From Virgisporangium aliadipatigenens (lineage in GTDB: Bacteria; Actinomycetota; Actinomycetes; Mycobacteriales; Micromonosporaceae): 42,440 nt of DNA. The translations under genes and the position numbers were made by a program. Where the stretch lies: positions 1-42,440 of the forward strand of contig NZ_BOPF01000060.1 of the NCBI RefSeq assembly GCF_016863615.1. The letters run 5' to 3'. Positions within the stretch are counted from its first letter, which is position 1. Every line of letters starts with the position of its first letter. Positions 13,739-36,957 of this stretch are shown here, one piece after another. Under the pieces are notes generated by a model. The model was not told the origin of the DNA. It worked only from the letters and a program-made list of their open reading frames with translations, and searched no databases.

Positions 13739-14662
13739 TCAATTGCAGCGTTCCAGGAGCTGAATCGCGCGCCAGCGCTCGACGAGGCGTTCGTAGGCGT
13801 CGGTGGCCGTCTCGCCGCGGCCGGCCTCCACCGCGGACAGGCCGCTCGACACCAGCGCCGGCGAGTCGTCCGCCGAGAGCTGCTCGTCCGAGAGCAGGTC
13901 CACCAGGCCGCCGTAGTCCAGCTCCACGGTCGAGTTGTCGTGGAACTCCTCCAGCCAGCGCGCCGTCTCCGCCACGGCCATCGTGATCGGGGCCTGCCCC
14001 AGCGCCCGGTCGAGCACGGTGTACGCCCGCTGCGCGCGCTGCCGCGCCCGGAACATCTCCGTGCGGTAGCGCAGCACCCGACGGGACGGCCCCAGCGTCA
14101 GTTCCCGCTCCGAGAGCTGCACGAACACGAACCACCGCAGCGGCACGCCCCACGTCGAGACCTGCTCGTGCAGCCGGGGCAGCCCGCGCTCCAACACCCG
14201 CGCCCCGGAACGCCAGTCGTCCACCACCGAGCGGGCCTGACCCGCCAGGGCCGGCGGCACGAACGCGTCCGCGATCACCGCCGGCACGCCGTCCCGCGCG
14301 GTCAGCGCCGCCTCGGCCACCCGGACCTTGAGGTTCCACGGGCAGACCAGCAGGGTGTCGTCGCCCTCCAGGATGTACGCCTCGTCGGGCAGGTCCGGCA
14401 GCCGCGTCCAACTGGCGCCGAGCGCCTCCAGCACGGCCGTGCGCTGGCGGCCGGGCCCCTCCAGCGGGGCGACCGCGCGTCCCTCCTGCACATAGCGCCG
14501 CCAGAACAGCTGCCGACTCCGGTCAAAGGCGGCCAGCGGTTCGTAGACCCGGAGGTAAGACGCGAACAGGGACGGCACCTCGCGATACTCGCACGGAATG
14601 CCGTTCGGCGAGTGCCGCGACGCGAGCCTTCTGCCGAAGCGCCTACCGGGGCCTACGCTCAT
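13739..14662 (-). CDS. Conserved actinobacterial protein of the bldC-vdh locus, function unknown
   Basis: About 307 residues with no domain I can name. SYLRVYEPLAAF near the N-terminus and EAYILEGDDTLLVCPWNLK are distinctive, and the rest is helical and rich in Arg and Leu. As I recall, an equivalent gene sits between bldC and valine dehydrogenase in Streptomyces (SCO4090). No signal peptide or membrane segment is visible. The start is uncertain: ATG 14662 gives a basic N-terminal extension; GTG 14578, just before the conserved SYLRVYEP segment, may be the true start. It is divergent from valine dehydrogenase. Confidence 0.7.
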   Translation of the reverse strand: MSVGPGRRFGRRLASRHSPNGIPCEYREVPSLFASYLRVYEPLAAFDRSRQLFWRRYVQEGRAVAPLEGPGRQRTAVLEALGASWTRLPDLPDEAYILEGDDTLLVCPWNLKVRVAEAALTARDGVPAVIADAFVPPALAGQARSVVDDWRSGARVLERGLPRLHEQVSTWGVPLRWFVFVQLSERELTLGPSRRVLRYRTEMFRARQRAQRAYTVLDRALGQAPITMAVAETARWLEEFHDNSTVELDYGGLVDLLSDEQLSADDSPALVSSGLSAVEAGRGETATDAYERLVERWRAIQLLERCN

Positions 14663-14754
14663 GTTCAAGCCGGCAACACCCAGCGCCGGCCGTCGCCCTG
14701 ATCGCCGCCGGGCAGTCCCACAAGGACGGTTCGGCCCCGCCCTAAGGAGCCAGC

Positions 14755-15825
14755 ATGAGCGTTTTCACCGCGGACACCGGCCACGAACAGGTGGTGTTCT
14801 GCCAGGACAAGTCGACCGGGCTGCGCGCCATCGTCGCCATCTACTCCACCGCCCTGGGCCCCGCGCTCGGCGGCACCCGGTTCTACCCCTACGCGAGCGA
14901 GGCCGAGGCGGTCCACGACGCGCTGGAGCTGTCCCGCGGCATGGCCTACAAGAACGCCCTCGCCGGCCTCGATCACGGCGGCGGCAAGGCCGTCATCTGG
15001 GGCGACCCGACCCGGGACAAGAGCGAGGCGCTCCTGCGCGCCTACGGACGGTTCGTCGAGTCGCTGGGCGGTCGTTACTACACGGCCTGTGATGTGGGCA
15101 CGTATGTGCAGGACATGGACGTGGTGGCGCGGGAGTGCCGGTTCGTGACCGGGCGCTCCGAGGCCGACGGCGGCGCCGGTGACTCGTCGGTCCTTACCGC
15201 GTACGGCGTCTTCCAGGGCATGCGCGCCGCCGCCGAACATCGCTGGGGCACGCCGACCCTGGCGGGCCGCACCGTGGGCATCGCCGGGCTGGGCAAGGTC
15301 GGCAAGCACCTCACCAAGCACCTGCTCGACGACGGTGCGCAGGTGGTGGCCACCGACGTGTCGGAGTCGGCGCTGGAGTGGGCGCGTACGACGTTTCCCC
15401 AGGTATCGCTGGTGGCGGACGCGGACGCCCTGATCCGCTCGGACATCGACGTGTACGCGCCCTGCGCCCTCGGGGGCGCCCTCGACGACGACACCGTGCC
15501 GGCGCTGCGGGCCACGATCGTCGCCGGGGCGGCCAACAACCAGCTGGCCCACCCCGGGATCGAGAAGCTGCTCGACGAGCGCGGCGTTCTGTACACGCCC
15601 GACTACGTGGTGAACTCCGGCGGCGTCATCCAGGTCGCCGACGAGATCCACGGCTTCAACTTCGAACGGGCGCGCCAGCGGGCCAGCCGGATTTTTGACA
15701 CCACGCGGCAGATCCTGCAGCTCGCCGCGGACGAGGGCGTGCCCCCGGCCGTGGCGGCCGACCGGCTCGCCGAACGCCGGATGACCGAGGTCGGACGGCT
15801 GCGGAGCATCCTTCTGCCCCGCTGA
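14755..15825 (+). CDS. vdh: Valine (branched-chain) dehydrogenase
   Basis: A 356-residue member of the Glu/Leu/Phe/Val dehydrogenase family. The catalytic lysines are K66 (MAYKNALAG) and K78 ([10 protein letters not shown]), and the NAD site is [12 protein letters not shown]. It catalyses reversible oxidative deamination of valine, leucine and isoleucine to the 2-oxo acids; in streptomycetes this feeds acyl-CoA precursors of macrolides and branched fatty acids. The length is close to Streptomyces Vdh. AAGGAG lies 6 bases before the ATG. Position beside bldC matches the Streptomyces locus, which supports Vdh over leucine dehydrogenase, though specificity is not certain. Confidence 0.92.
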
Positions 15826-15929
15826 CCGGGACACGCGTGTAAGGCGTGACGACCGGTACCGGAGACGGGGCTTACCGGGCGTCCGCCGACCGGGTGTGGA
15901 ACGCCACCGGTTAAGTCAGGGAGGGCGAG

Positions 15930-16001
15930 ATGCCGAATGGTGCCCGCGACATGTACCGTATGAGCCACGAGAGATGCCTGACGTGTGGGGCGTGCCGGTA
16001 A
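15930..16001 (+). CDS. Short upstream ORF with CxxCxxC, overlapping the extended DUF3073 frame
   Basis: A 23-codon ORF beginning MPNGARDMYR and ending RCLTCGACR, three cysteines two residues apart near its end. A strong ribosome-binding site (GGGAGGGCGAG) lies directly before its ATG at 15930. The stop TAA at 15999-16001 shares its last A with an ATG (TAATG) that is in frame with the downstream DUF3073 gene. This is the geometry of translational coupling or a leader peptide. The CxxCxxC could bind a metal or make translation sensitive to cysteine supply. Nothing is known of such a peptide here; the ORF is too short for statistics, so confidence is moderate. Confidence 0.45.
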   Translation: MPNGARDMYRMSHERCLTCGACR

Positions 16002-16036
16002 TGGCTGCCCCTAATTCTGTGCGAGGGGGTCGAGCC

Positions 16037-16291
16037 ATGGGGCGCGGCCGTGCTAAGGCCAAGCAGACTAGGGTGGCCCGGGAGTTGAAATACCACTCCC
16101 CGAACACCGACCTCGCCGCGTTGCAGCGTGAGCTTGCCGCGAGCCGTGGGTCCGCCGACCCGGTCGAGTCCGAGTACTCCGACGAGTACGCGGACGCCGA
16201 CGAGGACGACGAAGACCTCGACGAGGACGACGGTCCCGAGGCCAACGGTGGCGGGGGTAGCAGGGGCGGCTCCGGTTGGGGCTCTCGGTGA
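16037..16291 (+). CDS. DUF3073 protein
   Basis: An 84-residue protein starting MGRGRAKAKQTRVARELKYH, the invariant opening of DUF3073, followed by an extremely acidic stretch (SDEYADADEDDEDLDEDDG) and a Gly-rich end. The strongly basic head and acidic tail suggest a nucleic-acid-associated or ribosome-associated protein, but no function is established. ATG 16037 is preferred from conservation and from GAGGGGG upstream; ATG 16001, overlapping the short ORF stop, would add 12 residues. As I recall, it lies between vdh and purM in Streptomyces too. Confidence 0.9.
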   Translation: MGRGRAKAKQTRVARELKYHSPNTDLAALQRELAASRGSADPVESEYSDEYADADEDDEDLDEDDGPEANGGGGSRGGSGWGSR

Positions 16292-16327
16292 CGCCGGGTT
16301 CGCCCGGATCCTGAGGAATTAGGCCTG

Positions 16328-16357
16328 CACAGGCACGCGGGATTCCGCGTGCCTGTG
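16328..16357 (+). terminator. Strong hairpin after the DUF3073 gene
   Basis: A perfect 13-bp stem, CACAGGCACGCGG (16328-16340) with CCGCGTGCCTGTG (16345-16357), and a GATT loop. It lies 37 bases after the DUF3073 stop. No T tract follows, which is common for actinobacterial terminators. It would also face transcription arriving from the converging RiPP genes at 16493. Confidence 0.65.
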
Positions 16358-16492
16358 TCATGCCCGCATCCTGCGCGGACCATCCAGCGATGACGTGTGA
16401 TGTCCCGGCGACTCCATGAGCCGCCGGGACCTTGTGCGTCGGTGGTGCATGCGGCCGGCTCACGCCGAGCCGTTCTCCGACGCGTGCGCGCT

Positions 16493-16687
16493 TCAGCGTG
16501 GCCGGTTGTTCCAGTTGTAGAACGTCGGGATGTTCTCGAAGTGGTTCCACGCGCACACCGCGCTGTCGCCGTCCCCACCGGTCTCGGCGCGGGCGGCACG
16601 CGCCTCCTCCGCCTCGGCCAGGAGCGCGTTCAACCCCTCCGCGTTGGCGCGTAGGCGGGCCTCCACGGGATCACCGGTTGGCGGCAT
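16493..16687 (-). CDS. amcA: RiPP precursor peptide, multiple three-residue-cyclophane type (AmcA-like)
   Basis: A 64-residue peptide. Residues 1-40 are a charged, Ala/Glu-rich leader predicted helical (RLRANAEGLNALLAEAEEAR). The C-terminus after a Gly/Asp linker is the presumed core: CAWNHFENIPTFYNWNNRPR. It holds three aromatic-X-Asn triads, F50-E-N52, F56-Y-N58 and W59-N-N61, plus W47-N-H49. Radical SAM cyclophane synthases join an aromatic ring carbon to the beta carbon of the third residue of such triads, often Asn. The ATG at 16687 lies inside the maturase gene, overlapping its end by 17 bases, so the two are coupled. The modification is inferred; the AmcA name is from memory of this family. 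Confidence 0.75.
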   Translation of the reverse strand: MPPTGDPVEARLRANAEGLNALLAEAEEARAARAETGGDGDSAVCAWNHFENIPTFYNWNNRPR

Positions 16688-17780
16688 GGTCGAGCACTCC
16701 CTCCAGTAGGCGGATCTTGCTGTTGCGGCAGTGGTCCGTCTCCGTGACGTCGAACCGGCCGTGCTCGAAATACCGGTTGGCCGCGTGCGCACCGCCGCAG
16801 AAGCCGAAGTACGGGCAGGTGGCGCGGCAGCCCTCGACGCCGTCGAGGAACTCGCGCAGCCACGGGGTGCGTTCGACCGCGCCCGCCAGGATCTCGGCGA
16901 GCGGCGTGTCGCGCACGGTGCCGGAGGAGAAGTCGCCGTAGCGCCGGTCGGTGAAGCCGGCCAGCTCGGGGGAGAGTACGAAGACGCGGCCGTCCGCGGC
17001 GACCGTCGGGATCGGGTCCAACCGTCGGGGCAGCACGCCGTCCGCGGTGCCGGCGAGGACCGCACCGGCGTACCGGAGCGTGTACTCGATCTCGCGCAGG
17101 TGGATGCGCGGATCCCGGCGCCAGGCCTCGACCAGGGCGGCCCAGAATCCCCGCACGTCCGACTCGGCGTGGGCGTTGGCGCGGGCGTTGACGCCCTCCT
17201 GCTCCTCGATGTTGATCCCGAGAACGTCGCAGCCCAGGTCGAGGAAGTAGGCGTACAGCTCCGCGGCGAGCTCCGGCCGGGGATCACTCACCACGCACAG
17301 CGCCGAGAACGGCAGCTCGTGCCGGCGCAGCGCGTCCACCCCGCGCACGATCCGCTCGTACGCCGGCGCGCCGCCCCGTGTGACCCGCTGACCGTTACGG
17401 ACAGCCGGGCCGTCAACGCTCACACTGACTCGGACGCGGTGGGCAGCGAAAAAGTTGCACCACCGGTCGTCGATCAGCGTCGCGTTGGTTTGCACATGGT
17501 GCTCGACGCCCTCGAACGGCGCCATCAACGCCGCCAGGTGATCACGGCCCGCCGCCAGCGGCTCACCGCCGTGCCACACCACCGAGAAGCGTTCGTTGTC
17601 GGCGGCCCAGCGGTTGACGTCCGCCGCCACCGCCCGGGCCACCTCGACCGGCATGCGCCGATCGAGGGCCCGATGAGGGAGATAGCAGTAGGTGCAGTCC
17701 AGATTGCACAGGGTGGTCGGCTGGAGGACGACATACTCGGGAACGGCGGCCACGCCGCTCATCCCGGTCCATGCCATCAC
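16671..17780 (-). CDS. amcB: Radical SAM/SPASM peptide maturase (AmcB-like cyclophane synthase)
   Basis: A 369-residue radical SAM enzyme. The [4Fe-4S] ligands are C25, C29 and C32 in TTLCNLDCTYCYLPHR. A SPASM-type C-terminus follows (GCRATCPYFGFCGG, and a final Cys in TDHCRNSK) for auxiliary clusters. HGGEPLAAG is the SAM-binding GGE motif. Enzymes of this type modify ribosomal peptides; the adjacent aromatic-X-Asn precursor points to C-C cyclophane formation. GTG 17780 and ATG 17777 are both possible starts, only 12-15 bases after the purM stop, so it is probably transcribed with purF-purM. No protease or transporter gene is adjacent. Confidence 0.85.
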   Translation of the reverse strand: MMAWTGMSGVAAVPEYVVLQPTTLCNLDCTYCYLPHRALDRRMPVEVARAVAADVNRWAADNERFSVVWHGGEPLAAGRDHLAALMAPFEGVEHHVQTNATLIDDRWCNFFAAHRVRVSVSVDGPAVRNGQRVTRGGAPAYERIVRGVDALRRHELPFSALCVVSDPRPELAAELYAYFLDLGCDVLGINIEEQEGVNARANAHAESDVRGFWAALVEAWRRDPRIHLREIEYTLRYAGAVLAGTADGVLPRRLDPIPTVAADGRVFVLSPELAGFTDRRYGDFSSGTVRDTPLAEILAGAVERTPWLREFLDGVEGCRATCPYFGFCGGAHAANRYFEHGRFDVTETDHCRNSKIRLLEGVLDHAANR

Positions 17781-17792
17781 CGGCCCCGGCGG

Positions 17793-18938
17793 TCAGCCGC
17801 TGGTGTACGAGCCGACCATCTGCACCTCGCCGGTGCCCTCGACGACCTCACCGACCTGCCACGACTCGATCCCGCGCCCGGCGAGGAACGCCAGCGCGCG
17901 ATCGGCGTCGGCCGGCGCCACCACGGCCATCATGCCCACGCCCATGTTGAACGTGGCCTCCATCTCCATCTCCTCGATGCGCCCCTTGGCGCGCACCAGG
18001 TCGAAGATCGGCTGCGGCCGCCACGTCGAACGGTCCACCACCGCGTCGGCCGTCTCCGGCAGCACCCGCACCAGGTTGCCGGGCACGCCGCCGCCGGTGA
18101 TGTGGGCCAGCGCCCGCACCTCGCACTCCTTCATGAGGTCGAGGCAGTCCCTGGCGTAGATCTTGGTCGGGGTCAGCAGCTCCTCGCCGAGCGTGCGCTG
18201 GCTGCCGAACTCGTCGATCACCGTCTCCAACCGCATCCGGCCCTGGCCGAGCAGCACGTGCCGGACCAGCGAGTAGCCGTTGGAGTGCAGACCCGACGAA
18301 CGCATCGCGATGACCGCGTCGCCGACCTCCACCCGGTGCTTGCCCAGGATCGCGTCGTGCTCCACCACGCCGACCCCGGTACCGGAGATGTCGTACTCGT
18401 CGGGGCGCATCACGCCGGGGTGCTCCGCCGTCTCGCCGCCCAGCAGGGCGCAACCGGCGTACCGGCAGCCGTCGGCGATGCCCGCGCCGATCTCCGCCAC
18501 CCGGTCCGGCACGACCTCGCCGCACGCGATGTAGTCGAGCAGGAACAGCGGCTCCGCCCCGCACGCCACCAGGTCGTCCACGACCATCGCGACCAGGTCG
18601 ATGCCGACCGTGTCGTGGATCTGCAGGGTCTGCGCGATCACCAGCTTGGTGCCGACGCCGTCCGTCGAGGAGGCGAGCACCGGCTCCCGGTACTTCGACA
18701 TGTCCAGCTTGAACAGGCCGGCGAAGCCGCCGAGGTCGCCCATGACCTCCGGCCGGTGGGCCCGCTTCACCTTGCCCTTGAGCAACTCCACGGCACGCTC
18801 ACCGGCGTGGATGGAAACGCCGGCGTCGGCGTAGGTGACGGTGCGCCGGCGTCCGGCCCGGCCGCTGCCGGCCGTCCAGAGCTGCTTGTCGGGGCTGTTA
18901 CCGGAACCACCGGATGCGCGCTCGTCCACGTGCGTCAC
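17793..18938 (-). CDS. purM: Phosphoribosylformylglycinamidine cyclo-ligase (AIR synthetase)
   Basis: A 381-residue PurM. It converts FGAM to AIR with ATP in step 5 of purine synthesis. Characteristic segments are TYADAGVSIHAGERAVE, ASSTDGVGTKL (substrate and Mg2+ site), LLGGETAEHPGV, GLHSNGYSLVR, and ITGGGVPGNL. The first 32 residues (Gly/Ser/Arg-rich) extend beyond the usual start, so a later start such as GTG in the TVTYADAG region is possible. The annotated GTG at 18938 has AAGGGGAAG upstream. It starts 10 bases after purF and is followed closely by the RiPP maturase gene. Confidence 0.96.
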   Translation of the reverse strand: MTHVDERASGGSGNSPDKQLWTAGSGRAGRRRTVTYADAGVSIHAGERAVELLKGKVKRAHRPEVMGDLGGFAGLFKLDMSKYREPVLASSTDGVGTKLVIAQTLQIHDTVGIDLVAMVVDDLVACGAEPLFLLDYIACGEVVPDRVAEIGAGIADGCRYAGCALLGGETAEHPGVMRPDEYDISGTGVGVVEHDAILGKHRVEVGDAVIAMRSSGLHSNGYSLVRHVLLGQGRMRLETVIDEFGSQRTLGEELLTPTKIYARDCLDLMKECEVRALAHITGGGVPGNLVRVLPETADAVVDRSTWRPQPIFDLVRAKGRIEEMEMEATFNMGVGMMAVVAPADADRALAFLAGRGIESWQVGEVVEGTGEVQMVGSYTSG

Positions 18939-18948
18939 GTTCTTCCCC

Positions 18949-20472
18949 TTAGGGCTGGCTGAGAAGGGCAGGATGGTCAGCGCTGTCGAGCGCAGCGTTG
19001 GCGGGCGGCTGCGCCGCCGCTCGGACCAGGCCCTCCAGTACGTGTTTGCCGATCACGTTGTCGGCGGGAAGCTCGATCGGGTACTCGCCGTCGAAGCAGG
19101 CCCGGCAGAGCCGGCTCGTCGGCTGCTCGGTCGCCGCGATGAGACCGGGCAGGGAGACATACCCCAGGGAGTCGGCGCCGATCGCGCGCCGGATCCCCTC
19201 GTTGTCGAGACCGTTGGCCAGCAGCTCCGCGCGGGTCGCGAAGTCGATGCCGTAGAAGCAGGGCCACTTGACCGGGGGCGAGGAGATCCGCACGTGCACC
19301 TCGATCGCCCCGGCCTCGCGCAACATGCGCACGATGGCGCGCTGCGTGTTGCCCCGCACGATCGAGTCGTCGACCACCACCAGCCGCTTGCCCCGCACGT
19401 TGTCGCGCAGCGGGTTGAGCTTGAGGCGGACCCCGAGCTGGCGGATGGTCTGCGACGGCTGGATGAAGGTGCGGCCCACGTAGGCGTTCTTCAGCAGGCC
19501 GGCGCCGTAGGGGATGCCGGACTCCGCGGCGTAGCCGATCGCCGCCGGGGTGCCCGACTCCGGTACCGGGATGACCATGTCGGCCTCGACCGGGTGCTCG
19601 CGGGCCAGGGTGCGCCCGATCGCGACCCGCGCGGAGTGGACGTTGCGGCCGGAGATCGTCGTGTCGGGGCGCGCCAGGTAGACGTACTCGAACAGGCAGC
19701 CCTTGGGATCCGGCGCGGCGAAGCGGCTGGAACGCAGGCCGTGCTCGTCGATCGCGAGCAGTTCGCCCGGCTCGATCTCGCGCACGACGCTGGCGCCGAC
19801 GATGTCCAGCGCCGCCGTCTCGCTGGCGACCACCCAGCCGCGCTCAAGGCGGCCGAGCACCAGCGGGCGGACGCCGTTGGCGTCGCGCGCGGCGTACAGA
19901 GTGTCGTCGTCCATGAACACGAAGCTGAAGGCCCCGCGCAGCGTCGGCAGCACCTCCAGGGCCGCGGCCTCCACGGACAGGTCCGGCCGGGCCGCCAGCA
20001 ACGCCGTCACCAGCGCGGTGTCGGAGGTGGCACCCACGTCGCCGACGCCCAGCTCGGCCGCGCGGCGGGCCAACTCGGCCGTGTTGACCAGGTTGCCGTT
20101 GTGCGCCAGCGCGATCGTCGTACCACCGTCGGTGGCGCGCAGCGTCGGCTGCGCGTTTTCCCACGTCGAGCCGCCGGTGGTGGAGTAACGCGTGTGGCCG
20201 ATCGCGATGTGCCCCCGGAGGGAGGACAGGGTGGGCTCGTCGAACACCTGCGCCACCAGGCCGAGGTCCTTGTAGACCATCACACCCGTGCCGTCGGAGA
20301 CCGCGATGCCCGCCGCCTCCTGGCCCCGGTGCTGGAGCGCGTACATACCGAAATAGCTGAGCTTTGCCACTTCTTCGCCGGGGGCCCACACACCGAACAC
20401 GCCGCATTCGTCCTGAGGACCGGGCTGCTGCGGGTCGATGTCGTGGCTGAGCCGGCCGTCGCCTCGGGGCAC
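18949..20472 (-). CDS. purF: Amidophosphoribosyltransferase
   Basis: A 507-residue PurF, the first committed step of purine synthesis (PRPP + glutamine to phosphoribosylamine). The N-terminal nucleophile is C23 (DECGVFGVW), exposed after removal of a 22-residue propeptide as in the Bacillus-type enzyme. The PRPP site is VVVDDSIVRGNT. Cysteines in GCLFEYVYL, KWPCFYGID and LCRAC are the expected [4Fe-4S] ligands. Start is GTG 20472. It is the first gene of purF-purM-amcB-amcA; TACACT at 20559-20564 (minus strand) is a possible -10. Confidence 0.96.
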   Translation of the reverse strand: MPRGDGRLSHDIDPQQPGPQDECGVFGVWAPGEEVAKLSYFGMYALQHRGQEAAGIAVSDGTGVMVYKDLGLVAQVFDEPTLSSLRGHIAIGHTRYSTTGGSTWENAQPTLRATDGGTTIALAHNGNLVNTAELARRAAELGVGDVGATSDTALVTALLAARPDLSVEAAALEVLPTLRGAFSFVFMDDDTLYAARDANGVRPLVLGRLERGWVVASETAALDIVGASVVREIEPGELLAIDEHGLRSSRFAAPDPKGCLFEYVYLARPDTTISGRNVHSARVAIGRTLAREHPVEADMVIPVPESGTPAAIGYAAESGIPYGAGLLKNAYVGRTFIQPSQTIRQLGVRLKLNPLRDNVRGKRLVVVDDSIVRGNTQRAIVRMLREAGAIEVHVRISSPPVKWPCFYGIDFATRAELLANGLDNEGIRRAIGADSLGYVSLPGLIAATEQPTSRLCRACFDGEYPIELPADNVIGKHVLEGLVRAAAQPPANAALDSADHPALLSQP

Positions 20473-20558
20473 TGCCGCTCCTGTTCTGCGGGAGTCTGGG
20501 GGTCGTGTGGCGCTGCCGAGGGCGATTGATCCTGCAAGGTCGCCGTCGCCGAGATGAC

Positions 20559-20564
20559 AGTGTA
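20559..20564 (-). promoter_or_regulatory. -10 candidate for the purF unit
   Basis: On the minus strand these bases read TACACT, a TANNNT -10. Transcription would start at about 20552, about 80 bases before the purF GTG, in the 118-base gap after the sterol-carrier-like gene. No clear -35 or known riboswitch fold was recognised. Confidence 0.3.
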
Positions 20565-20590
20565 CGTGAGTCAGCCGGAATCGAGCAGCG

Positions 20591-20983
20591 TCACGCCTCT
20601 CCAGCGGCCCCTGCTGTGGGCGTTCTCCCAGCTAACGGAAGGTACGGGGTGAGGTCGGCCCGGTTGCCGCTCGCGCGCACGCGCCCGGAGTTCACCGCGT
20701 CGGCCCAGGAACTACGCCCCGTGGCCAGATCTATCCACGTGCGGGGGTCGGTCTCTATCACGTTCGGCGGGGTGCCACGGGTGTGACGCGGCCCGGCCAC
20801 ACACTGGATTGCACCGTACGGCGGAACCCGCACCTCCACCGATCGGCCAGGGGCAAGGTCCGCCAACGCCCCGAGCAGGACTCTTACGGCATCCCGCACT
20901 GTCGTCCGATCCGGCTCTTCACCGCGTTCCAGGGTTTCGAGAACGGCATCAACCGGGCCTAAATCACGGTATTTAGCGGACAC
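20591..20983 (-). CDS. Sterol carrier protein (SCP2)-like
   Basis: About 130 residues. AKYRDLGPVDAVLETLERGE begins the conserved part; VRVPPYGAIQCVAGPRHTRG, TPPNVIETDPRTWIDLATGR and VRASGNRADLTPYLPL are typical of the actinobacterial sterol-carrier-family protein encoded beside purF. The hydrophobic pocket of SCP2 folds binds lipids; the ligand is unknown. The start is uncertain: GTG 20983 opens the conserved region but has no evident ribosome-binding site. ATG 21022 or TTG 21052 would add 13 or 23 residues. Confidence 0.75.
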   Translation of the reverse strand: MSAKYRDLGPVDAVLETLERGEEPDRTTVRDAVRVLLGALADLAPGRSVEVRVPPYGAIQCVAGPRHTRGTPPNVIETDPRTWIDLATGRSSWADAVNSGRVRASGNRADLTPYLPLAGRTPTAGAAGEA

Positions 20984-23536: not shown

Positions 23537-26712
<3,176 letters not shown>

Positions 26713-26716
<4 letters not shown>

Positions 26717-34258: not shown

Positions 34259-34867
34259 ATGACGACCTGGCGTATCGGCGAACTGGCGACGGCCACCGGC
34301 GTGACCGTTCGCACGCTGCACCACTACGACGGGCTGGGCCTGCTGAGCCCGTCGGAGCGCACCTCGGTCGGGCACCGCCGGTACACCGCCGCCGACGTCC
34401 GCCGGCTGCACCGGATCATCGCGCTGCGCGACTTCGGCCTCTCGCTGGCCGAGATCGCGCGGGTCCTCGACGGGCCCGACGCCGACCCGCGCGAACTGCT
34501 GCGCGCGCAGCTCGCCCGGGTCGAGGAGCGGCTGACCGCCGGCGAGCGGTTGCGCCGCACCCTGATCGACCTGATCGCTTCACTCGATCAGGTCTCACTT
34601 GATCGCGCGGTGGAGCCCGACGTCCATCACCTGATCGCACTCATCGAAGGGACCACCCGGATGAACCGCCCGCTCACCGAGGAAGAACTCGCCGAGATGA
34701 CCGAAACCCGACAAGCCCTCATGGCCACGCTGACACCGGAGCAGATCGCCGAGATGAACGAGACCCGCCGCAGGTGGCGGGAGAGCCTGACGGAGGAGGA
34801 GTTGACGGCGGCCCGCACGGCTCGCGCGGCGCTGCTCCCGCCGTCGTGGCAGCCCCGGGACGGGTAA
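34259..34867 (+). CDS. MerR-family regulator
   Basis: A 202-residue MerR protein. The winged helix-turn-helix is WRIGELATATGVTVRTLHHY followed by GLLSPSERTSVGHRRYT. A dimerisation coiled coil lies at about residues 75-115, and the C-terminal 80 residues are a Glu/Thr-rich helical effector part (LTEEELAEMTETRQALM; TLTPEQIAEMNETRRRW), suggestive of TipAS-like antibiotic sensing but too short to assign. There are no metal-binding cysteines. The oligopeptidase B gene starts 11 bases downstream and is the likely second target of the promoter. Start ATG 34259, leaderless. Confidence 0.87.
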   Translation: MTTWRIGELATATGVTVRTLHHYDGLGLLSPSERTSVGHRRYTAADVRRLHRIIALRDFGLSLAEIARVLDGPDADPRELLRAQLARVEERLTAGERLRRTLIDLIASLDQVSLDRAVEPDVHHLIALIEGTTRMNRPLTEEELAEMTETRQALMATLTPEQIAEMNETRRRWRESLTEEELTAARTARAALLPPSWQPRDG

Positions 34868-34878
34868 CGTTCTCGGCT

Positions 34879-36957
34879 GTGACGACGCAGCAGCCGCCCG
34901 TGGCCAAGACCGTTCCCGCTGAGCGCACGCATCACGGCGACACGGTCGTCGACGAGTACGCCTGGCTCACGGACAAGGAAGATCCGGACACCATCGCCTA
35001 CCTCAAGGCGGAGAACGAGTTCACCGAGTCCGCGACGGCCCACCTTGCGGCGCTGCGCGACACCCTGTTCAACGAGATCAAGAACCGCACCCAGGAGACC
35101 GACCTGTCGGTCCCCACCCGCAAGGGCGCGCACTGGTACTACACGCGCACCGAGGAGGGCAAGCAGTACGGCATCCAGTGCCGGCGCGCGGTCGCCCCCG
35201 GGGAGACCGCGCCGCCGGCCACCGGCGAGGGCGCCCCGCTCGCCGGCGAGGAGGTGCTGCTCGACGGCAACGTGCTCGCCGGCGACAGCGAGTTCTTCGC
35301 GCTCGGCACGTTCGACGTGAGCCCGGACGGCACCCGCCTCGCCTACTCGACCGACTTCGCCGGCGACGAGCGGTTCACGCTGCGGGTCAAGCGGCTGGAC
35401 ACCGGCGAGGTGCTCGCCGACGAGATCCCCGGGGTCTTCTACGGCTCGGCCTGGTCGACCGACGGGTCCACGCTCTTCTACCTGACCGTCGACGACGCCT
35501 GGCGCCCGCACAAGGTGTGGCGGCACACCGTGGGCACGCCGTCGTCCGAGGACGTCGTCGTCTACGAGGAGACCGACGAACGCTTCTGGGTCGGCGTCGA
35601 CCTCACCCGCTCGGAGAAGTTCATCCTCATCGAGGCCGGGAGCAAGATCACCAGCGAGGTGCGGTTCATCCCGGCGGACGACCCGACCGCCGAGCCGGTG
35701 CTCATCGCGCCCCGCCGGCACGGGGTGGAGTACTCCGTCGAGCACCACGGCCACCGGTTCCTGATCCTGCACAACGACGGGGCCGAGGACTTCGCCCTCG
35801 CGTACACCTCCTGCGACGCGCCGGGCGGCTGGACGCCGCTGATCGAGCACACCCCGGGCATCCGGCTCACCCAGGTGGACGCGTTCAGCCGGCACCTGGT
35901 GGTGGCGCTGCGCCGGGACGGGCTGACCGGCCTGCGCGTGGTGCCGCTCGACGGCGGGCGCGACTACGACATCTCGTTCCCCGAGCCGATCTACACGGTC
36001 GGGCCGGACCACAACCCGGAGTACGACACGGCGACGTTCCGGCTCGGGTACACGTCGCTGGTGCAGCCGGACTCCATCTACGACTGCGAACTCGACACGG
36101 GCAACCTGGTGCTGCGCAAGCAGCGGCCGGTGCTCGGCGGCTACGACCCCGCGCAGTACGAGCAGCACCGCGAGTGGGCGCTCGCCGACGACGGCACCCG
36201 CGTGCCGATCTCCCTGATCTGCCGCAAGGGCACGCCGCGCGACGGCTCGGCGCCGTGCGTCATCTACGGGTACGGCTCCTACGAGGCCTCGATGGACCCG
36301 TGGTTCTCCATCGCGCGACTGTCCCTTGTGGACCGTGGCGTCACCTTCGCCGTGGCGCACATCCGCGGCGGCGGCGAGATGGGCCGCGCCTGGTACGAGA
36401 ACGGCAAGATGCTGGCCAAGCGCAACACGTTCACCGACTTCGTGGCGTGTGCCGAGCACCTGACGAAGTCGGGTTGGACCAGCGCCGACCGGCTCATCGC
36501 GCGGGGCGGCTCCGCCGGCGGGCTGCTGATGGGCGCGGTGGCAAACCTGGCGCCGCAGGCGTTCGCGGGCATCGTGGCGCAGGTGCCGTTCGTCGACGCG
36601 CTCAACACGATCCTCGACCCGTCGCTGCCGCTGACCGTGATCGAGTGGGAGGAGTGGGGCAACCCGCTGGAGAGCGCCGACGTGTACCGGTACATGAAGT
36701 CGTACAGCCCGTACGAGAACGTGACCGATGTGCGGTATCCGGCGATCCTCGCCATGACCAGCCTCAACGACACGCGCGTGCTCTACCACGAGCCGGCGAA
36801 GTGGGTCGCGAAGCTGCGCAAGGTGTCGCCGGAGTCGGACGTTCTGCTCAAGACGGAGATGGGCGCCGGGCACGGCGGGCCGAGCGGCCGCTACGACTCC
36901 TGGAAGGAAGAGGCCTTCATGGCGGCGTGGATTCTCGACCGCCTCGGAAAGGCGTAG
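34879..36957 (+). CDS. ptrB: Oligopeptidase B (prolyl oligopeptidase family, S9A)
   Basis: A 692-residue serine peptidase. Residues up to about 400 form the beta-propeller; the alpha/beta hydrolase domain follows. The triad is S545 (ARGGSAGGLLMG), D631 (SLNDTRVLYHE) and H665 (GAGHGGPSGRYD), with spacing almost identical to E. coli OpdB. It cleaves short peptides after Arg or Lys in the cytosol. GTG 34879 follows the MerR gene by 11 bases and opens the usual N-terminal segment; the frame further upstream overlaps merR and is not used. It ends in a terminator shared with the dehydratase gene. Confidence 0.93.
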   Translation: MTTQQPPVAKTVPAERTHHGDTVVDEYAWLTDKEDPDTIAYLKAENEFTESATAHLAALRDTLFNEIKNRTQETDLSVPTRKGAHWYYTRTEEGKQYGIQCRRAVAPGETAPPATGEGAPLAGEEVLLDGNVLAGDSEFFALGTFDVSPDGTRLAYSTDFAGDERFTLRVKRLDTGEVLADEIPGVFYGSAWSTDGSTLFYLTVDDAWRPHKVWRHTVGTPSSEDVVVYEETDERFWVGVDLTRSEKFILIEAGSKITSEVRFIPADDPTAEPVLIAPRRHGVEYSVEHHGHRFLILHNDGAEDFALAYTSCDAPGGWTPLIEHTPGIRLTQVDAFSRHLVVALRRDGLTGLRVVPLDGGRDYDISFPEPIYTVGPDHNPEYDTATFRLGYTSLVQPDSIYDCELDTGNLVLRKQRPVLGGYDPAQYEQHREWALADDGTRVPISLICRKGTPRDGSAPCVIYGYGSYEASMDPWFSIARLSLVDRGVTFAVAHIRGGGEMGRAWYENGKMLAKRNTFTDFVACAEHLTKSGWTSADRLIARGGSAGGLLMGAVANLAPQAFAGIVAQVPFVDALNTILDPSLPLTVIEWEEWGNPLESADVYRYMKSYSPYENVTDVRYPAILAMTSLNDTRVLYHEPAKWVAKLRKVSPESDVLLKTEMGAGHGGPSGRYDSWKEEAFMAAWILDRLGKA

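Follow-up and report, generated by a model that had tools for sequence, protein, structure and literature searches.

The amcBA locus

The 42,440-nucleotide stretch of Virgisporangium aliadipatigenens analyzed here (contig NZ_BOPF01000060.1 in full, hereafter the window) carries a gene pair, amcBA, that encodes a radical SAM/SPASM maturase and a 64-residue precursor peptide and lies directly behind the purine genes purF and purM. The order on the minus strand is purF, purM, amcB, amcA, and the features of the locus are as follows.

18949–20472, minus strand: purF, with glutamine amidotransferase and phosphoribosyltransferase domains (Pfam); ends 10 bp ahead of purM
17793–18938, minus strand: purM (TIGR00878, 437.9 bits against a cut-off of 236.35)
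17778–17792, minus strand: gap between purM and amcB, the shortest of the linked loci measured, lacking the −10-like site of the relatives
16671–17780, minus strand: amcB, radical SAM/SPASM maturase; candidate starts GTG 17780, ATG 17777 and ATG 17762
16671–16687, minus strand: 17-bp overlap of the amcB stop and the amcA start
16493–16687, minus strand: amcA, 64-residue precursor peptide (match to NF041722, AmcA_3a)
16496–16561, minus strand: AmcA core AVCAWNHFENIPTFYNWNNRPR, with predicted rings at F-E-N, F-Y-N and W-N-N
16327–16358: stem-loop separating amcA from the convergent DUF3073 gene, its limits read by eye from the sequence
15896–16291, plus strand: DUF3073 gene, the convergent neighbor of amcA (PF11273, 78 bits)

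The purM stop is separated from amcB by 12 nt if the GTG start is used and by 15 nt for the first ATG. ATG 17777 is the likelier start, because the window and both named Virgisporangium loci have the sequence MAWTGMSG in common. An initial annotation had described a radical SAM/SPASM gene 12–15 bases after purM, followed with a 17-base overlap by a 64-codon precursor gene, and both its coordinates and its gene calls were correct. Downstream of amcA, RNA folding of 16300–16400 on the minus strand gave a strong hairpin (−56 kcal/mol, z −4.85), and the stem-loop at this place is a possible end of the transcription unit; a terminator scan of 16300–20800 that requires a T-tract found none. Rfam, applied to the whole window at the gathering threshold, returned only a tRNA at 1351 and no known RNA element at the purM–amcB junction. 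No protease or exporter adjoining the cassette was matched among the part of the window's open reading frames that was tested.

Identity of the maturase and its precursor

NCBI models already cover the family to which this enzyme–precursor pair belongs. AmcB matches NF041718 with 506.5 bits against a cut-off of 425, over model positions 1–361 of 362, and AmcA matches NF041722 (AmcA_3a) with 109.9 bits against a cut-off of 65. The second-best NCBIfam model for AmcB is TIGR04261 (GrrM/OscB-type), at 238.8 bits and under its cut-off of 310. With both proteins above the NCBIfam cut-offs, the earlier assignment to a cyclophane-type (AmcAB, triceptide-type) cassette for a ribosomally synthesized and post-translationally modified peptide (RiPP) holds by family, and the crosslinks themselves are predicted. 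The radical SAM motif of AmcB is CNLDCTYC. Its cysteines (C25, C29 and C32) and those of the C-terminal set (C318, C322, C328 and C351) are unchanged across 28 aligned relatives, so that the CX3CX2C motif and C-terminal cysteines noted at the outset are invariant. The AlphaFold (AF2) model has a predicted local distance difference test score (pLDDT) of 92.6, and a Foldseek comparison with solved structures placed it closest to ChlB and anaerobic sulfatase-maturating enzyme (anSME). One AmcB above the cut-off is present in the genome of the window species.

Triceptides carry C–C links between residues i and i+2, according to the definition in an excerpt of PMC11002830. As expected of such a peptide, the aromatic-x-X core motifs F-E-N, F-Y-N and W-N-N of amcA adjoin a SPASM maturase gene.

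Conservation of the core peptide

Three samples were used to follow the pair. The locus set (n = 81) comprises the window plus 80 named loci, retained from the 91 confirmed matches of a single genome scan. The family set contains 354 species-level genomes of Micromonosporaceae from 44 genera and is wider than the AmcB-bearing crown, and the class sample contains 394 genomes, 3 from the family and 391 from outside.

The 20-residue core CAWNHFENIPTF(Y/F)NWNNRPR was found exactly, by pattern search, in 292 of the 354 family genomes and in 24 of the 44 genera. It occurs in none of the 391 class genomes outside the family; the three exact matches among all 394 are the three family members. G669 (genus g4) is the sole genome of the 354 with two exact copies. 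The 62 family genomes without the exact core divide into 22 with an AmcB orthologue (66–77% identity) and 40 without one. Among the latter, 38 come from nine genera and two are fragmented assemblies, namely G735, with 86% completeness, and G041, in which purM lies close to the end of a contig and AmcB is represented by a distant paralogue only. The cores of the 22 are near-identical to the common form, type A, in five cases (one with I changed to V, four with an extra P ahead of the last R), while ten belong to type B, three to type C, one is degenerate, and three were unreadable.

Of the 81 loci, 73 have a type A core: 62 identical to that of the window, ten with F for Y, and one with V for I. 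The other eight are five type B loci (L079, L094, L105, L111, and L118), the degenerate L108, L106 with its core lost at a contig end, and L116, which belongs to another family. The 73 type A loci contain 66 different DNA versions of the 66-nt core. Synonymous variation affects 17 of the 22 codons and amino-acid change only two. Conservation of the DNA itself is excluded by these 66 versions.

On average, pairs of sequences are 98.8% identical in the core, 30% in the leader (ungapped, over its last 30 residues), 76% in AmcB, and 83% in PurM. The longest run of alignment columns at ≥97% measures 27 in PurM, 17 in PurF, and 8 in AmcB. By this yardstick, conservation of the core equals that of the most constant stretch in a central enzyme and greatly exceeds that of AmcB itself. 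There is no proven loss of amcBA among crown genomes, and the presence of the pair in all adequately assembled ones argues for steady use, not essentiality.

Core types, paralogues and trees

On a PurF+PurM tree, 12 of the 38 AmcB-lacking genomes, representing all nine genera, fall outside the AmcB-bearing crown. The nearest sister of the crown is G035, together with G041; the crown has a support of 0.69 by itself and of 1.00 when G035 and G041 are included. Two further core types occupy the same locus. Type B (WRPFEDAFPTFYQFTNRPR-like, AmcA_3b) is found in other lineages, and type C (PRWTDVFTTQFTEFSNRPR) in L145, L150, and L173 of genus g24. The one type C sequence tested scored under the AmcA cut-offs, and type C is a putative AmcA subtype without an existing model. 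Types A and B have three aromatic-x-(N/D/Q/E) triads at aligned positions, which in type B read FED, FYQ, and FTN. Three rings are predicted because these triads are kept in both types; W-N-H in type A would be a candidate for a fourth.

A tree of AmcB, rooted with distant paralogues, separates the maturases of type A and degenerate cores from those of types B and C (supports 0.845 and 0.941). On the species tree, Hamadaea (type B) adjoins the Catellatospora group (type A) with a support of 0.67. Old allelic lineages or exchange of cassettes would explain this mismatch. In addition, some family genomes (L012, L013, L014, L015, and L019) have an unlinked second AmcB with 41–44% identity. These five paralogues adjoin cores that are built on FDN/WDN motifs and differ in motif number and in length. 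Two of their precursors were tested and both pass AmcA_1.

Linkage to purM

Linkage was scored when purM lay upstream of amcB, on the same strand and within 700 bp. By this measure purM is directly upstream in 70 of the 81 loci, is inverted away in eight, and is missing in three. In a separate sample of 61 family genomes, an AmcB above the cut-off is present in 47 and is linked to purM in 40. A check of how often the two genes stay paired, proposed in the initial annotation, thus found the pairing widely kept. Of the seven unlinked genomes, three have the inversion (G016, G017, and G051) and two carry purM on a different contig (G019 and G042); purM was not found in G005, and in G041 nothing but a distant paralogue exceeds the AmcB cut-off. 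In the class sample, AmcB exceeds the cut-off in eight of 394 genomes, three from the family and five from outside. Three of the five outside genes were checkable, and none is near purM.

The eight loci in which purM is inverted away and amcBA is retained belong to Catellatospora and Catelliglobosispora (L084, L091, L103, L104, L110, L112, L115, and L117). In the Catellatospora lineage, a block consisting of a glycine-rich gene, an SCP gene, purF, and purM is inverted with a breakpoint just upstream of amcB, and the glycine-rich, surface-protein-like gene now precedes amcB. Three Catellatospora junctions were folded, as short stretches, and gave a stable hairpin between the two genes (−31.6 to −43.9 kcal/mol). 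The amcB gene of Catelliglobosispora starts approximately 15 bases past the upstream stop, and that of Allorhizocola likewise, judged by a matching tail alone. Hamadaea has the opposite flank rearranged and keeps amcBA with purM. In L105, L111, and L138 (Hamadaea and a relative), a DUF3073–bldC block is inverted and bldC now adjoins amcA. The amcBA pair stays together whichever neighbor is lost, and adjacency to purM looks like an inherited position.

Stretches without amcBA were also compared. DUF3073 is downstream of purM in six of 14 and was not found in the stretch in the other eight. From the purM stop to DUF3073 the distances are 55 nt (G063), 338 nt (G014), 953, 2929, 2965, and 3368 nt; G063 and G014 look like the empty site.

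The purM–amcB spacer

To make loci comparable, the spacer was measured from the purM stop to a conserved Gly-Met codon near the AmcB start. Its median is 154 bp over 70 loci. The window has the minimum, 27 bp; the next-shortest among 79 linked loci is 32 bp, and the relatives range from 32 to 411 bp. A −10-like pattern, TA[AG][CG]CT[GA], is present in 43 of 69 spacers (the window and named loci), and 200 shuffles gave a mean of 1.17 and a maximum of 5. A looser form is present in 49 of the 69 (shuffle mean 6.8, maximum 14), and a TTCACC-type box stands 17–18 bp ahead of the −10-like site in 20 (shuffle mean 0.005, maximum 1). The pattern was picked after the spacers had been viewed, and the counts describe conservation of a motif and are not an independent test. 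Hairpins with z < −2 are found in 42 of 64 purM–amcB spacers versus eight of 38 purF–purM control spacers. On these features, a separate promoter seems to serve amcBA in many relatives.

The spacer of the window has neither the −10-like site nor a strong hairpin. No promoter hidden in the gap or in the 3' end of purM was found: the −10-like pattern has no match within 130 nt, and a strict sigma-70 scan gave none either, a weak test with only 0.2 matches expected by chance. The initial annotation, which saw no sign of a separate promoter between purM and the maturase, is to this extent borne out. Read-through from purF–purM is probably the state in the window species, because nothing promoter-like was found there, and this state is probably derived and local. 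The window genome offers what would be expected of an operon member, a gap of 12–15 bp and no promoter-like site. Across the relatives, the spacer lengths, −10-like sites, hairpins, and cases of lost linkage do not show the same arrangement without a separate promoter.

Proposed role of the AmcA peptide

The invariant core, seen beside a diverging leader and diverging DNA, is suggestive of a housekeeping peptide whose partner is fixed, with chemistry and function as predicted properties. We infer that this partner tolerates little change. Invariance favors a role in basic cell function over one as an antibiotic, and the housekeeping role that was raised as a possibility in the initial annotation is indeed possible. 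As a whole, the best explanation, which we consider fairly probable, is an ancestral AmcBA cassette making a three-ring peptide that acts on a fixed partner; the rings, the processing, the read-through in the window, and the function are its predicted parts. The cassette would have entered the interval between purM and DUF3073 in the ancestor of the crown Micromonosporaceae and would have been kept there with few exceptions. AmcB would link the aromatic residue in each of F-E-N, F-Y-N, and W-N-N with the side chain at position i+2, so that three small rings form, and a protease encoded elsewhere would presumably cut the core from the variable leader. The mature peptide would then probably act, in the manner of a hormone or cofactor and not of an antibiotic that diversifies, via a partner that is fixed across the family, be it a receptor, an enzyme, or a self-regulatory target. 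In the Virgisporangium of the window, the spacer would have shrunk, and amcBA probably rides on purF–purM transcripts. The more specific proposal, that the three-ring peptide works throughout the crown Micromonosporaceae as an endogenous regulator, hormone, or cofactor with one conserved cellular partner, is tentative and we hold it to be plausible, short of probable.

Several observations weigh against the ancestral fixed-partner cassette. Other cores occur at the locus, with type B or C in 13 family genomes and a degenerate form in one, and conserved short runs are not unique to the core (27 columns in PurM, 17 in PurF). Maturase clade and core type go together, and part of the core invariance could reflect the fit of enzyme and substrate. 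Branch supports in the PurF+PurM tree are uneven (0.04–1.00). DUF3073 follows purM in just six of the 14 stretches that lack amcBA, so the empty-site argument stands on few cases. As for separate promoters, the −10-like site is absent in 26 of 69 spacers, the two-box match in 49 of 69, and a strong hairpin in 22 of 64, and the −10-like motif was selected only after inspection.

The strongest rival explanation is that the core is frozen only by the specificity of AmcB and that the product has no conserved target. It fits the correlation of maturase and core, since the type A maturases separate from those of types B and C on the tree as the core types do, but it does not account for the frozen positions beyond the ring motifs, such as A-V-C-A, I-P-T, and R-P-R. 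Moreover, AmcB drifted to a mean identity of 76% and the core did not, and the unlinked family paralogues adjoin cores of differing length and motif number. We regard this explanation as unlikely. Purine coupling, the view of the initial annotation, would make amcBA part of the purF–purM operon and have peptide production follow purine synthesis, on which the peptide would perhaps act. It draws on the short gap without a promoter-like site in the window and on the adjacency seen in 70 of 81 loci. Against it stand the median spacer of 154 bp in the relatives, with promoter-like sites and hairpins, the eight of 81 loci that retain amcBA behind another gene after purM was inverted away, and the outside AmcB genes, none of which adjoins purM among the three checkable of five. 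As a general rule, coupling to purine synthesis is rejected by the spacer, promoter-like and rearrangement evidence, and by a refuting condition named in the initial annotation, a distinct promoter, it probably fails in many relatives; it may hold in the window species. The link looks incidental, and as an explanation of the cassette we find purine coupling quite unlikely.

An antibiotic or bacteriocin secreted by the family would have precedents in darobactin and dynobactin, related crosslinked peptides that are antibiotics according to excerpts of PMC9055067 and PMC11002830, respectively. A core that is invariant across 292 species-level genomes speaks against such a role, and no transporter or immunity gene was recognized among the neighboring open reading frames tested, which were not all of them; we consider it very unlikely. 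Neutral retention, that is, a stable and dispensable pair kept by its position between two long-standing neighbors, has the conserved position in its favor. It is at odds with the synonymous change in 17 of 22 codons against two amino-acid changes, with a leader at 30% identity beside the core, and with the lack of any proven loss among crown genomes, and we give it almost no credence. The ancestral cassette with a fixed-partner peptide is the explanation that we prefer.

Other genes of the window

A prolyl oligopeptidase (Peptidase_S9) is encoded at 34774–36957 on the plus strand, approximately 17 kb off the cassette, too far and too general for a leader protease. PurL (23537–26716, minus strand) has an extra C-terminal tail of approximately 300 residues, among which Ala, Ser, Asp, and Gly are abundant, and the PurL model covers only residues 36–762 of 1059. 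A 309-residue protein without a Pfam or NCBIfam match (13739–14668, minus strand) lies between a dehydrogenase gene and bldC in nearly all named loci that reach there. The Glu/Leu/Phe/Val dehydrogenase at 14755–15825 (plus strand) has as its top NCBIfam model the tryptophan dehydrogenase ScyB, with 342 bits against a cut-off of 600.

Comparison with known systems

Among the literature matches listed, there is no account of an invariant family-wide core or of the purM locus; Phan and Morinaka (ACS Chem Biol 2022, 17:3284), who reportedly describe AmcAB, may report part of it. For purM with RiPP or radical SAM, only an enzyme-mechanism paper, represented by an excerpt, involves purM among the matches listed. 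The excerpted text of a review on actinobacterial development (PMC4255298) contains nothing on the amcBA pair. An endogenous role of the peptide, if true, would mean that cyclophane RiPPs include molecules of core metabolism or development, beyond antibiotics. To our knowledge, few radical-SAM-modified peptides serve their own producer cell. As most species of a large soil family of antibiotic producers have the same core, and no loss is proven in the crown, a self-serving role is directly testable on a 64-codon gene. The locus also illustrates that an apparent operon link in one genome can mislead, as the peptide is fixed and the coupling of purM and amcB is not.

The closest known systems are the AmcB and AmcA families (NF041718; AmcA_1, NF041721; AmcA_3a, NF041722; AmcA_3b, NF041723), of which the window pair passes the NF041718 and NF041722 cut-offs. 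It shares with them a maturase gene followed by a short precursor with aromatic-x-Asn motifs. Since AmcBA belongs to a known family, its chemistry would not be new. Unlike the AmcA_1-type paralogues examined in the same family, which lie elsewhere and have variable cores, the window-type core is invariant in most of the family and mostly confined to one locus. The anSME oxidizes Cys or Ser, and ring formation is not its reaction. Together with ChlB it provides the best fold and sequence matches of AmcB among solved structures (PDB 4k36–4k39, 9gm3, and 9gmc), at approximately 20% identity over the fold alignment. The GrrM/OscB-type maturases (TIGR04261), which form cyclophanes, are the second-best match of AmcB, below the family cut-off. 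The precursors PqqA and MftA of pyrroloquinoline quinone (PQQ) and mycofactocin likewise combine a small peptide with a radical SAM/SPASM enzyme to make a conserved product that serves the cell, and only a few of their residues become the cofactor. About 20 residues of AmcA are invariant, and therefore, unlike in PqqA and MftA, the whole peptide is probably the product.
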